Part shown: piece by piece, positions 3,096 to 54,423 of the stretch | Position numbering within the stretch: the first letter of the stretch is position 1 | Layout of the letters: each line of letters opens with the position of its first letter | Assembly: GCF_001512285.1 (NCBI RefSeq) | Contig: NZ_LNUV01000004.1 | Location: forward strand, 124,001 to 188,000 | Origin: Arthrobacter sp. EpRS71 | Lineage (GTDB): Bacteria > Actinomycetota > Actinomycetes > Actinomycetales > Micrococcaceae | Length of the DNA: 64,000 nucleotides | Direction of reading: 5' to 3' | Notes under the pieces: model-generated | Told to the model about the DNA's origin: nothing | Databases searched by the model: none | Seen by the model: only the letters and a program-made list of their open reading frames with translations | Position numbers and translations under genes: made by a program

Positions 3096-3130
3096 AAAGG
3101 CCTTGGAGTGAAATTCACTCCAAGGCCTTT
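3096..3130 (-). terminator. Intrinsic terminator of the second tRNA-Lys
   Basis: A perfect 15-bp stem (3096-3110/3116-3130) with a 5-nt loop lies directly after the tRNA 3' end on the minus strand and is followed by a T-rich tract. Confidence 0.8.
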
Positions 3131-3134
3131 TCCT

Positions 3135-3210
3135 TGGTGCACCCCCCGGGACTCGAACCCGGAACCCATTGATTAAGAGTCAATTGCTCTGCCAGTTGAG
3201 CTAGAGGTGC
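3135..3210 (-). tRNA. tRNA-Lys (anticodon CTT), copy 2
   Basis: Same 76-nt sequence as copy 1, CCA encoded, anticodon CTT. Each copy has its own upstream promoter region and its own downstream hairpin, so they look like two independent transcription units that arose by tandem duplication. Confidence 0.97.
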
Positions 3211-29200: not shown

Positions 29201-29222
29201 GCTCCCAGCCAGTCGTTGAAGA

Positions 29223-29270
29223 CCGACGGCGGCTCTTGCCTTTCACACGGAAGGCAAGGGCCGCCGTCGG
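29223..29270 (+). terminator. Terminator after the FAH-family gene
   Basis: The 20-pair arms 29223-29242 and 29251-29270 (one wobble) with an 8-nt loop; only a short T stretch (GCGTTT) follows. Confidence 0.7.
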
Positions 29271-29323
29271 GCGTTTCCGGCCGGGAAACCGACGCGTCGC
29301 CAAGCGGTAAAGTTGGAACCACT

Positions 29324-30844
29324 ATGACTACTGCTTCTGCGTCGAACGCTGCTTCCAGCGCCATCCCTGCCGTCAACGCCGAGACTCCGGTCCGCGTCCG
29401 TTTCTGCCCGTCGCCCACGGGAACACCGCACGTTGGCCTGATCCGCACTGCCCTGTTCAACTGGGCGTACGCACGCCACACCGGCGGCAAGCTGATCTTC
29501 CGCATCGAGGACACGGACTCGGCCCGCGACAGTGAAGAGAGCTACCACCAGTTGCTGGATGCCCTGAAATGGCTCGGCATCAACTGGGATGAGGGCGTGG
29601 AAGTTGGCGGACCGCACGAGCCGTACCGGCAGTCGCAGCGCGGCGACATCTACCAGGATGTCATCGCCAAGCTCAAAGCCGGAGGACACGTTTACGAGTC
29701 CTACTCAACGCCTGACGAGATCGAAGCACGCCACAAGGCGGCGGGCCGCGACCCCAAGCTGGGCTACGACGGCTTCGACCGGCACCTGACGGATGAGCAG
29801 CTGGCACAATTCAAAGCCGAGGGTCGCGAGGCCGTCCTTCGCCTCCGCATGCCGGACGAGGACCTGACCTTCAACGACCTGGTCCGCGGCGAGATTACCT
29901 TCAAGGCCGGTTCGGTTCCCGACTTTGCTGTTGTGCGCGCCAACGGTGCTCCGCTTTACACGCTGGTGAACCCTGTGGACGACGCTCTTATGGGCATCAC
30001 CCACGTTCTTCGCGGCGAGGATCTGCTCAGTTCCACTCCGCGTCAGATTGCGCTGTACCGCGCCCTCTACGCCATCGGCGTGGCCGAGTACATGCCGGAG
30101 TTCGGCCACCTGCCCTATGTCATGGGCCAGGGCAACAAGAAGCTTTCCAAGCGTGACCCCGAGTCCAGCCTGTTCCTGCACCGTGAACGTGGATTCATCC
30201 CCGAGGGTCTGCTCAACTACCTCTCGCTCCTTGGCTGGTCACTGAGCGCGGACGAGGACATCTTCACCGTGGAGCAGCTCGTAGCCAACTTCGATATCCA
30301 CGATGTCCTGGGCAACCCGGCCCGTTTCGATATCAAGAAGGCTGAAGCCATCAATGGAACCCACGTGCGGTTGCTTGCGCCGGAGGACTTCAAGGAACGC
30401 TTGGTGCCTTACCTCCGGGCTGCTGGTTTCGTAGGGGAAATCCTGACCCCGCGGCAGGAAGAGATCCTCGCAGAGGCAGCTCCTCTGGTACAGGAACGCA
30501 TCACCTTGTTGGGAGAAGCTCCGGAGATGCTGGCCTTCTTGTTCAAGGCCGATGACGCGATTGACGTTGCCGACGATGCCCGCAAGGGACTTCCGCAGAA
30601 CCTGGAGGAAGTACTCGACGCTGCCTTGGCGGCGCTGGAACCGATCGGTGAGTGGACGGCCGAGAATATCCAGGCCGCGCTCAAGCAGGCATTGGTGGAG
30701 GATCTGGGCATCAAGCCACGGGCAGCTTTCGGTCCAGTGCGTACGGCCATCTCAGGACGCCGCATTTCTCCGCCCTTGTTCGAGTCGATGGTGATCCTTG
30801 GCAAGGATTCCTCGCTCGCCCGTGTCCGCGCCTTCCGAGGCTAG
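29324..30844 (+). CDS. gltX: Glutamyl-tRNA synthetase
   Basis: Class I synthetase charging tRNA-Glu, and in bacteria lacking GlnRS also tRNA-Gln (later amidated by GatCAB). 506 residues. The HIGH-like motif is in [26 protein letters not shown] and the KMSKS equivalent is KLSKR (near residue 272). The Glu/Asp-binding stretch [11 protein letters not shown] and [14 protein letters not shown] are typical. I start at ATG 29324; an upstream in-frame codon would run through the terminator hairpin. TAAAGT lies 10 nt upstream, giving a very short leader. tRNA-Gln and tRNA-Glu genes lie 0.9-1.1 kb downstream. Confidence 0.96.
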
Positions 30845-51781: not shown

Positions 51782-51860
51782 GCTTGACAGGTACCTTGCG
51801 CCGTTGCGCCGAGTTCCCCAAGCTGAAACCACCGCGTAGTTACCTGCGCCCGGCGTCGGT

Positions 51861-51890
51861 TTGAGTCCTCAAGCGTGATCAGGCTAAGAT
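51861..51890 (+). promoter_or_regulatory. Promoter of the DUF177-rpmF-rnc-mutM operon
   Basis: TTGAGT (51861-51866) and TAAGAT (51885-51890) are 18 bp apart. The predicted start near 51897 gives a leader of about 27 nt that contains AGGAG. Confidence 0.6.
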
Positions 51891-51923
51891 GGTACGTCGG
51901 TCATATGTTCTACAGGAGTTCTC

Positions 51924-52475
51924 ATTAAGCGAGATGCAAGTTCGCCCTTGGCGCTGGTAGTCAAGGACCTTGGACGTAGTCCAGGGACCATGCGGACACT
52001 CAACGAGCATGTACCTGCGCCAAGTGACCTTGGTGTGGCGCTCATTGGCGTAAAGGAAGGCTCGGATATCGAGCTGGATCTTCGTCTTGAGGCCGTACAC
52101 GAAGGAATTCTGGTATCCGGAACCGTCGTCGTCGAAGTAACCGGCGAATGCGGTCGATGCCTGGATCCCCTTGCGTATGACCTTGAGGTCAATGTGCAAG
52201 AACTTTTCTTCTATGAAGGCGTCGAGCTTTCAGGCGAAGAAGACGATGAAGAGCAACGTCGAGTCGAGTACGATCTGATCGATCTTGAGCCGGTGTTGCG
52301 GGACGCAGTTGTCACTATGCTGCCGTTCCAGCCGGTGTGCCGGGAAGACTGCCAGGGCCTGTGTTCCGAATGCGGAGCGCGCCTGGAAGACGAGCCGGGG
52401 CACCACCACGAGGTCATTGACCCTCGCTGGGCTGCCCTAGCTGATCTGGCTAAGACTGACCGGCAAACCGATTAG
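51924..52475 (+). CDS. DUF177 (YceD) family protein with probable ATT start codon
   Basis: 183 residues if translation starts at ATT 51924. AGGAG lies 5 nt before this ATT (51914-51918), and the first codons (KRDASSPLALVVKDLGRSPG) read on into the family N-terminus. The only conventional in-frame start nearby, TTG 51948, lacks a ribosome-binding site and would cut off that segment. The protein has CGRCLDPL, an acidic stretch FFYEGVELSGEEDDEEQRR, and the zinc-like C-terminal motif CREDCQGLCSECGARL. YceD is found next to rpmF in most bacteria and is linked to 23S rRNA/50S production. rpmF follows after 33 bp. Confidence 0.88.
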   Translation: MKRDASSPLALVVKDLGRSPGTMRTLNEHVPAPSDLGVALIGVKEGSDIELDLRLEAVHEGILVSGTVVVEVTGECGRCLDPLAYDLEVNVQELFFYEGVELSGEEDDEEQRRVEYDLIDLEPVLRDAVVTMLPFQPVCREDCQGLCSECGARLEDEPGHHHEVIDPRWAALADLAKTDRQTD

Positions 52476-52508
52476 TAAGTGTTCGTCTAAGAGAGAAATG
52501 AGATAGCC

Positions 52509-52712
52509 GTGGCTGTTCCCAAGCGGAAAATGTCTCGCGCAAATACACGCGCCCGCCGTGCCCAGTGGAAGGCAACTGCCCCCAACTTGGTCAAGACCAT
52601 CGAAAACGGTCAGGTTACCTACAGCCTGCCGCACCAGGCAAAGGTCGTTACTGACTCTGCCGGCACCGCGCTGTTCCTTGAATACAAGGGCCGCAAGGTC
52701 GCAGACGCCTAA
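52509..52712 (+). CDS. rpmF: 50S ribosomal protein L32
   Basis: 67-residue ribosomal protein with the standard N-terminus [21 protein letters not shown]. The tail has no zinc cysteines, as in many actinobacterial C-minus paralogues; a second, zinc-binding copy could exist elsewhere. GTG 52509 start with a weak GAGA upstream. rnc starts 23 bp downstream. Confidence 0.97.
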
Positions 52713-52735
52713 TCTGCCGTACAGGCTGACTAAGG

Positions 52736-53446
52736 ATGTCTTCAACTGAAGAGCTTCTGAAGCGTCTCGGTGTCTCGATTGACACCGAGACGCTTCGTCT
52801 TGCTCTGACACATCGCTCATATGCGTATGAGAACGGCGGGATTCCCACCAACGAGCGCCTCGAGTTCCTCGGCGACTCCATCCTGGGATTTTCCGTCACC
52901 GATTCTCTTTACCGTGAGAACCCCTCGCTGCCCGAAGGCGAGCTCGCCAAGCGGCGTTCCGCCGTCGTCAGTACGCGTGCCTTGGCCGGAATTGGCCGGG
53001 AGATCGGCGTTGGTGAGTTCATTTACCTCGGGCAAGGCGAGAAGCTGACCGACGGCAAGAACAAAGCCTCCATCCTGGCTGACACCATGGAGGCCCTGAT
53101 CGGCGCCACGTATCTCTCGAACGACATCGAGACAGCACGTCAACTGGTCATGCGCCTGGTGGGCCCGCTCCTGAAGGATGCAGGTGCACTTGGAGCAGGA
53201 ACTGACTGGAAAACGAGCATCCAGGAGCTGACCGCGAGCCGGCAACTGGGCGCCATCCACTATGCCGTTGAAGGCTCGGGGCCGGATCACGCCCGGACGT
53301 TCGAGGCAGTGCTGAATATTGGCGGCACGCCCTTCGGCAGAGGCTCGGGTCATTCCAAGAAGGAAGCGGAACAAGAAGCTGCCGCTGATGCCTGGCGTGC
53401 CCTGACCGCCCTGGACTCCACCACCGCCGGTCCTGCTACCTCATAA
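52736..53446 (+). CDS. rnc: Ribonuclease III
   Basis: Double-strand-specific endonuclease that processes rRNA precursors and some mRNAs. 236 residues. The signature [16 protein letters not shown] carries the catalytic Glu and Asp; the second acidic pair is in [14 protein letters not shown]-terminal double-stranded RNA-binding domain follows ([67 protein letters not shown]). A perfect 16-bp hairpin lies at codons 8-21 of its own message. The gene precedes mutM by 5 nt. Confidence 0.97.
52759..52796 (+). promoter_or_regulatory. 16-bp perfect hairpin inside the 5' end of rnc
   Basis: GAAGCGTCTCGGTGTC (52759-52774) and GACACCGAGACGCTTC (52781-52796) are exact reverse complements separated by 6 nt. 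In RNA this gives an RNase III-type substrate 20 nt after the rnc start codon. A self-cleavage site is the likely meaning; transcription termination is unlikely because no T run follows. Confidence 0.6.
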
Positions 53447-53451
53447 ACCCC

Positions 53452-54423
53452 ATGCCTGAACTTCCCGAAGTAGAGGTAGTCCGCCGCGGCCTGGCCCGTT
53501 GGGTTCGTGGACGCACCATCACAGGCGTCGATGTCCTGGATTCACGGTCCATCCGTCGGCACGCGCTTGGCACCGAGGACTTCATCGGCAATCTTGTGGA
53601 CGCCACCGTGCTCGACGTTGTGCGCCGGGGGAAGTTCCTCTGGATGCCCCTTGCCATGCCGGACTCGCCGGATGGTGACCCCGGAACTAACCCGGGAGAC
53701 CTCCCGAAGGTGGCGCTCATGGCGCATCTGGGAATGAGCGGTCAACTCCTGATGCAGGACCCGGACGTTGCTGATGAAAAGCACCTCAAAGTCAGAATCA
53801 GGCTCAGTACCGTGCCCGATATGCCCGAACAACTGCGGTTTGTTGACCAGAGAATCTTCGGCGGCCTGTTCGTGACGTCCCTGGTGCCAACAGTCGACGG
53901 CGGCCCTGGCGGCTTGGGCGAGACGCCGCTGCCGGAGATCGCCGAGGAAGCCTCCCACATTGCCAGGGATCCGCTGGACCCCTATTTCTCGTTCGACGCT
54001 TTCTATAAGAAAGTCAAAAGCCGCAAGACAGGCCTGAAGCGCGCGCTTCTGGATCAATCGGTAGTTTCCGGCATCGGCAACATCTATGCGGACGAAGCCC
54101 TGTGGCGTGCCAGGCTCCACTACGCCAGGGCAACGGACACACTTCGCCGAGCGGATGCGGAGCGGTTGGTCGAGGCTGCGAAGGATGTCATGAACGCCGC
54201 CCTTGACGCCGGGGGGACAAGTTTCGACTCCCTATATGTCAACGTCAATGGCGATTCCGGGTACTTTGCCCGGTCTCTGAATGCCTACGGACGTGCTGGT
54301 GAACTGTGCGGACGCTGCGAGGAGATAGGCCTGCGGAGCATCATCAAACGGGAACAGTTCATGAACCGTTCTTCCTATACCTGCCCGGTGTGCCAACCGC
54401 GGCCGCGGAATGGACGTTGGTAG
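53452..54423 (+). CDS. mutM: Formamidopyrimidine-DNA glycosylase (Fpg)
   Basis: Bifunctional DNA glycosylase/AP lyase that removes 8-oxoguanine and formamidopyrimidines. 323 residues, slightly long owing to inserts ([16 protein letters not shown] and [18 protein letters not shown]). N-terminal [13 protein letters not shown] includes the catalytic Pro2 and Glu3; RRGKFLW holds the conserved Lys; the helix-two-turn-helix is [18 protein letters not shown]; the zinc finger is [10 protein letters not shown]...YTCPVCQP with four cysteines. It is the last gene of the operon. smc, which often follows, is instead 8.5 kb away. Confidence 0.97.

Follow-up and report, generated by a model that had tools for sequence, protein, structure and literature searches.

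The rnc gene of Arthrobacter sp. EpRS71, which encodes RNase III, contains a hairpin in its own codons 8–21 that, by comparison with its relatives, is strongly supported as a selected structure. This sense-mRNA structure probably serves as an RNase III feedback site, where the enzyme would recognize and most likely cut its own message and so probably control its own amount. Coordinates below are those of the window, the whole stretch of 64,000 nucleotides that was analysed (positions 124,001 to 188,000 of contig NZ_LNUV01000004.1).

The rnc hairpin and its rarity

The rnc coding sequence (52736–53446, + strand, 236 aa) is an open frame with a Pfam RNase III domain and a dsrm domain, and the nearest named relative found is Arthrobacter bambusae, with an RNase III identity of 90%. 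The gene order on the + strand is yceD, rpmF, rnc, mutM. Upstream lie yceD (DUF177; 51948–52475, Pfam YceD) and, 23 nt from rnc, rpmF (L32; 52509–52712, Pfam L32p), the upstream gene of the presumed operon, while mutM (53452–54423, Pfam Fapy_DNA_glyco) follows 5 nt after rnc. The names rnc, rpmF, and mutM given in a preliminary description of this DNA therefore hold.

The two arms of the hairpin, located by inverted-repeat search and by the covariation alignment, are 16 nt each, 100% complementary, and 6 nt apart. The 5′ arm (52759–52774) starts at the third base of codon 8 and runs through codons 9–13 (K R L G V), the 6-nt apical loop (52775–52780) falls in codons 14–15, and the 3′ arm (52781–52796) covers codons 16–20 (D T E T L) and ends on the opening base of codon 21, just as in the perfect 16-bp hairpin with a 6-nt loop that had been described beforehand. 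A U:G pair (52758/52797) extends the stem to 17 pairs, giving a hairpin of 52758–52797, and in those relatives where the bases flanking the loop pair as well (column pair 25/30), the loop is 4 nt. Within the reading frame, the hairpin is located at about +24 to +61, ~23 nt past the start codon. A 151-nt rnc transcript folds at −66.4 kcal/mol, whereas its 200 dinucleotide-shuffled versions average −42.4 (sd 3.6; z −6.7) and none of them is as low. This fold adds a weak outer helix of 5 bp (52750–52754/52802–52806), and the extended structure (52750–52806) is also seen in genus rows, with the 3′ side of the outer helix retained in 38 of 48 distinct rows. Judging from these rows, the outer helix is less constrained than the main stem, which tells against counting it as part of the site. 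A stable stem-loop within the rnc coding sequence is a feature of autoregulated rnc genes of the Streptomyces and Staphylococcus type, and the rnc transcript analysed here has one. In contrast, the hairpin of E. coli rncO is located in the untranslated leader; the Arthrobacter hairpin, sitting in codons 8–21, is not a leader hairpin of that type, and its position inside coding sequence binds it to codon choice.

The folding energies of 60-nt segments of 58 mechanically chosen ORFs across the 64 kb were compared with those of synonymous recodings, and the rnc segment ranked 2nd of 3869 (z −5.21). The top-ranked segment is the start of ORF 29216, where a strong terminator-like hairpin (29219–29270) is apparently intergenic. 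This hairpin probably lies between genes, inside the mechanical ORF 29216–30841, with the gene start probably near 29324, and was scored among ORF segments since the start codon taken for the ORF is an early one. Perfect hairpins of at least 16 bp with a loop of 3–10 nt number three in the window, the rnc hairpin included, compared to ~1e-4 expected by simple arithmetic in 64 kb of random sequence. Perfect hairpins of 19 bp (2818–2859) and 16 bp (3096–3130) are terminator-like, each being just 3′ of a tRNA-Lys(ctt) gene (2864–2939 and 3135–3210, minus strand). Across the whole genome, R1, a covariance model of the rnc hairpin built from relatives, finds below E 0.01 only the rnc site (E 3.7e-20) and its reverse strand (E 6.2e-9), a uniqueness that applies to sequence plus structure, as scored by R1, and does not extend to hairpins of very different sequence. 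A chance origin is ruled out by the z score of the fold, the synonymous recoding described below, and the rank across the window. An intrinsic terminator was likewise rejected, with no + strand terminator-like site found within 51800–53500 and the hairpin lying early in the reading frame, as was a known Rfam element, with six matches up to E 10 over 52400–53500, the best reaching 20.3 bits where the cut-off is 43 and none exceeding its gathering score.

Conservation, codon pairing, and the sense strand

The 5′ regions of rnc were gathered from named species and from genomes of the genus, family, order, and class. Families are coded, f1 being the family of the window, in which the axis of the stem is −61. 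R1 matches 205 of 206 genus genomes at E ≤ 1e-10, with the places of the matches compared to those of rnc for some of them, and the sole genome without a match (G155) is 68% complete and has no rnc match either. All 93 scored f1 loci (92 genomes) have 15–18 of 18 positions paired at the same axis. Among the loci, 56 belong to the genus (54 genomes), and the pairs L002/L117, L012/L177, and L129/L155 are identical in sequence. A1, an alignment of 52 distinct family rows (all 50 distinct f1 rows, L002, and L003), was made with no row dropped for structure. Here, 96.4% of 936 cells are paired versus 91.1 (sd 0.4) in shuffles, and pairing falls to 31–46% when the partner is slid by 1–3 columns. Two-sided changes are found in 9 of 18 pairs, amounting to 49 cells versus 10.5 in shuffles, and 0 of 500 shuffles reach any of five covariation measures. 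A2 is an alignment of 54 rows from three coded families, made up of 30 of the 50 distinct f1 rows, hand-chosen for distinctness, together with L002, L003, L004, L014, L017, and all f6 (5) and f8 (14) loci. It is 94.0% paired, with a covariation score of 0.424 versus 0.175 shuffled and 147 two-sided cells versus 55.8, and two of the five measures are reached by some shuffles (48/500 and 15/500).

The pairing of the stem is in register with the codons, where Val GTC pairs with Asp GAC, Gly GGN with NCC, Leu CTC with Glu GAG (or, by wobble, with Gly GGG), Arg CGT with Thr ACG, and Lys AAG with Leu CTT. In the Gly codon, the third base mostly tracks the codon that it faces (GGT/ACC, GGC/GCC, GGG/CCC, and GGA/TCC), with GGT/GCC as a common wobble. 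Amino acids change in the same matched manner: replacement of Arg by His (CAT) is accompanied by replacement of its partner Thr by Met (ATG), and other residue pairs found in place of R/T are K/L, Q/L, and S/T. As the division of loci into those that have and those that lack the hairpin is defined on the structure itself, which makes complementarity counts circular, only the kinds of codon pair were used from it. Synonymous recoding was scored in 313 of 328 loci, the 15 left out being without an LTHRS-type motif (8 of them rows tagged ‘no motif’). Recoding of the same protein gives a mean of 11.7 of 18 pairs in the family, while the observed median is 17, and at most 1 of 200 recodings matches the observed pairing in 91/93 f1 loci (the exceptions being L159, 2/200, and L250, 10/200), 5/5 f6 loci, and 13/14 f8 loci. 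The folding energy of the whole region is below z −3 in 65 of 93 f1 loci. The preliminary description had called such complementarity costly for the protein. This is only partly right, as 11.7 pairs on average come from the protein sequence alone under random synonymous codons, and the remainder from codon choice and from matched changes of amino acids.

Variation at synonymous sites is reduced across the hairpin. In the genus (56 loci), synonymous heterozygosity is 0.055 in the 14 hairpin codons versus 0.385 in 101 others, about seven-fold lower, and in the 39 other family loci it is 0.20 in hairpin codons versus 0.51 outside. The low-variation block in the genus (52736–52806; 56 loci, 54 genomes) spans the start codon through roughly codon 24, with the stem accounting for only its central part. 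Its extension back to the start codon, past the stem, is not accounted for by cleavage alone and counts against the feedback reading. Within low-variation codons 1–7 (52736–52758), a 5-bp stem, TCTTC/GAAGA, is located right after the rnc AUG, and the site may include this small stem or the outer helix, which is kept in part. The stem-loop is kept by selection in related species: the genus-wide match, the covariation, the low synonymous variation, and the recoding nulls all bear out the earlier suggestion of selection for the fold, and a check for loss of pairing by synonymous changes in close relatives, also raised there, found that the pairing is kept.

The kinds of mismatch indicate which molecule is selected. 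Across the 15 core pairs of A1, the non-Watson-Crick cells comprise 41 G:U, 2 A:C, and 7 others, where the cells are non-independent through shared ancestry and coding limits on changes, and the excess of G:U is thus to be read as a direction with no P-value. Since G:U is a pair only in sense RNA and far outnumbers A:C, the selected molecule is the sense mRNA. A DNA-level palindrome or antisense structure, such as a protein-binding site, a cruciform, or an antisense RNA, would be served by a perfect inverted repeat that is nearly identical on both strands, and R1 does score the minus strand, but this bias toward G:U makes such an explanation very improbable. Neutral quasi-palindrome correction, by which template switching between the arms would produce matched changes in both without selection, is hardly credible either: it predicts Watson-Crick matches and no reduction in variation, while the hairpin varies about seven-fold less than the rest of rnc, G:U persists in many rows with A:C rare, and the stem is held over several families. 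Nor is it at all probable that the stem is a by-product of the motif (K/E)(R/K)LGV...DxE(T/L)L combined with G+C-rich codon choice. Random recoding does yield many of the pairs by itself, yet the observed median lies well above that mean, 91 of 93 family loci are matched by no more than 1/200 recodings, and amino acids change in complementary codon pairs.

A proposed feedback of RNase III on its own message

Under the feedback reading, free RNase III, when plentiful, would bind the 17–18-bp stem at codons 8–21 and most likely cut it. The cut would take off the start of the rnc frame and expose the fragments to decay, lowering RNase III synthesis. With the hairpin inside the rnc reading frame, removal of the start is the reason why a cut would silence the rnc message, and as a side effect rpmF (upstream) and mutM (downstream) would end on separate RNAs. 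The preliminary description had such a cut separating rpmF from rnc-mutM; rpmF would indeed be parted from mutM, but the cut would fall within rnc and leave a start-less rnc together with mutM. Good bacterial RNase III substrates are usually ~20–22 bp. That the 17-bp stem is shorter than the usual substrate, with the lengthening outer helix only partly kept, speaks against the feedback reading, as do the groups without a significant stem and the lack of the stem in L048 (see below).

Feedback by RNase III through an rnc stem-loop is already known. In S. coelicolor, RNase III (absB) shortens the life of its own polycistronic transcript by cleaving two stem-loops in it, one of which is in the rnc cistron (Xu, Huang & Cohen 2008, as described in the review PMC10126417). 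Like the family of the window, Streptomyces has a significant stem in nearly the same codons (axis −66, shifted by 5 units, equal to 2.5 nt). This predicted Streptomyces stem is interrupted (9 bp and a short inner part), whereas the Arthrobacter stem is perfect. A second Streptomyces stem (axis +8) is not seen in the family of the window; it spans the HRSYAYE-motif codons in the Streptomyces/Kitasatospora loci L007–L011, L013, L019, and L051 and in the f33 loci L298, L300, and L304. The window also has no strong counterpart of the upstream hairpin of the Streptomyces operon, the lowest z outside the rnc hairpin being −3.1, at 52380 (80-nt segments over 51800–53500). In S. aureus, the target of RNase III is a stem-loop within the rnc coding sequence, cleaved at U+296, for which negative feedback was proposed and conservation among staphylococci was described (PMC3386247). 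The S. aureus and Arthrobacter sites are both inside the rnc coding sequence, but that of S. aureus lies well away from the start in a long, irregular helix, in contrast to the perfect stem near the start in Arthrobacter.

The Arthrobacter element, its reach, and its covariation were found neither in the literature surveyed nor in Rfam, and no description of a hairpin in rnc codons 8–21 was found in the open-access literature searched by title or abstract start. Actino-pnp RNA, which sits in the pnp leader, is likewise a hairpin conserved in actinobacteria and carried by the message of an RNA-decay enzyme, although it forms a separate Rfam family of pnp messages (RF01688). It scores above cut-off in the same genome (L329; G000 contig 3, 454553–454626). 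The rpsO-pnp hairpin of S. coelicolor is cut by RNase III (review PMC10126417).

Two further explanations share the selected sense-strand fold and differ in how it acts. The hairpin could act on translation, slowing or pausing the ribosome after initiation or tuning early elongation of rnc, independently of RNase III. The distance of the stem from the start codon, a low-variation block that spans the start codon through the stem, and the G:U bias, denoting a sense-strand RNA function, would all fit a translational role. This is nonetheless unlikely, in that R1 finds no similar site elsewhere in the genome, the product of rnc is itself a dsRNA endonuclease, and in Streptomyces the enzyme cleaves a site within the rnc cistron (PMC10126417); in addition, stems at other positions in other families are easier to account for with a target of the gene product than with a position-bound pause. 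Slightly less likely still is that RNase III represses translation by binding the stem and leaving it uncut, or that another ribonuclease cuts there. A short uninterrupted stem may be better bound than cut, and induction of RNase J in S. venezuelae leads to degradation of the rnc coding region (PMC12096830), but both known cases of rnc-internal autoregulation considered depend on cleavage (PMC10126417 and PMC3386247). By analogy with these two cases, self-cleavage by RNase III would seem to be the preferred reading.

Distribution across the Actinomycetes

Testing of stem axes, which reports groups of at least three loci, finds the stem significant at the same axis in f1, f6, f8, f31, f40, and, as a group, f18, where 2 of 13 single loci are at ≤1/200 recodings. 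Among named taxa, it is carried by Arthrobacter bambusae, Glutamicibacter, Cellulomonas, Promicromonospora, Microbacterium, and Propionibacterium cyclohexanicum, and the same-axis hairpins of some other families have a different sequence. In f7, 0 of 8 loci are at ≤1/200 recodings at the −61 axis. Significant stems at other axes are found in Streptomyces/Kitasatospora (−66 and +8), f7 (−67), f16 (−100), f14 (−118), and f13 (−136). Three families, f9, f12, and f19, are marginal, with 4–5 of 100 shuffles as high, and no axis is significant within the tested rnc stretch for f3, f11, f17, or the hand-made Nocardia/Rhodococcus and Nocardioides-like sets, from which it follows that RNase III does not depend on such a site in all groups. 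A non-actinobacterial control shows a slight excess (mean score 4.2 versus 3.8, with 1/100 shuffles as high), as it does without the wrongly included Micrococcales-titled MAG L074 (17 rows, 4.4 versus 3.9, 1/100). Among single loci, L050 (Acidimicrobiaceae) is at ≤1/200 recodings with just 11 of 18 pairs, and the hairpin is absent from L048, a MAG titled Auritidibacter that forms a very long branch inside the family clade. An order-wide R1 search matches 165 of 297 genomes at E ≤ 0.001 and misses 132, a tally for the order as a whole that includes matches outside rnc. One such match (E 2.6e-9) is in G601 of f8, at 344002–344051 of contig 3, away from the rnc gene on contig 6.

Several named loci were placed by hand: Streptomyces with f33, Pseudokineococcus with f7, Demequina with f9, Microbacteriaceae with f18, L021 with f16, and Nocardia/Rhodococcus relatives with f21. 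A quick tree of 110 proteins without their N-terminus, in which 45 of 106 inner branches are open, supports the placements for f7, f9, f16, and f18, the remaining ones being assumed. On this tree, the −61 state requires at least five changes, and every f1 row there carries the stem. From the distribution and the tree, the stem appears to be of old origin and open to loss, and it may also move, moving being the least certain of these. We propose, tentatively, that an RNase III feedback hairpin in the N-terminal coding region of rnc could be Actinomycetes-wide and repeatedly relocated, with an RNA operator dictating codons and several pairs of N-terminal amino acids. If this operator dictates residues, the pairs R/T, H/M, K/L, Q/L, and S/T would mimic coevolution without any protein contact, making a clear case of RNA structure shaping the amino-acid sequence of an enzyme and calling for caution in coevolution-based protein inference. 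Feedback by RNase III via its own coding sequence would then be widespread in Actinomycetes, beyond Streptomyces and the staphylococci, with control persisting while its position shifts, and the natural variants (perfect, wobble-bearing, shifted, and absent) would be a means to learn the substrate range of actinobacterial RNase III. The axis −100 stem of f16, present in the loci L209, L212, L223, L244, L247, L248, and L273 and in L021, is an interrupted hairpin of 26–29 bp that lies further upstream in rnc, with recoding z scores of −2.6 to −4.4.
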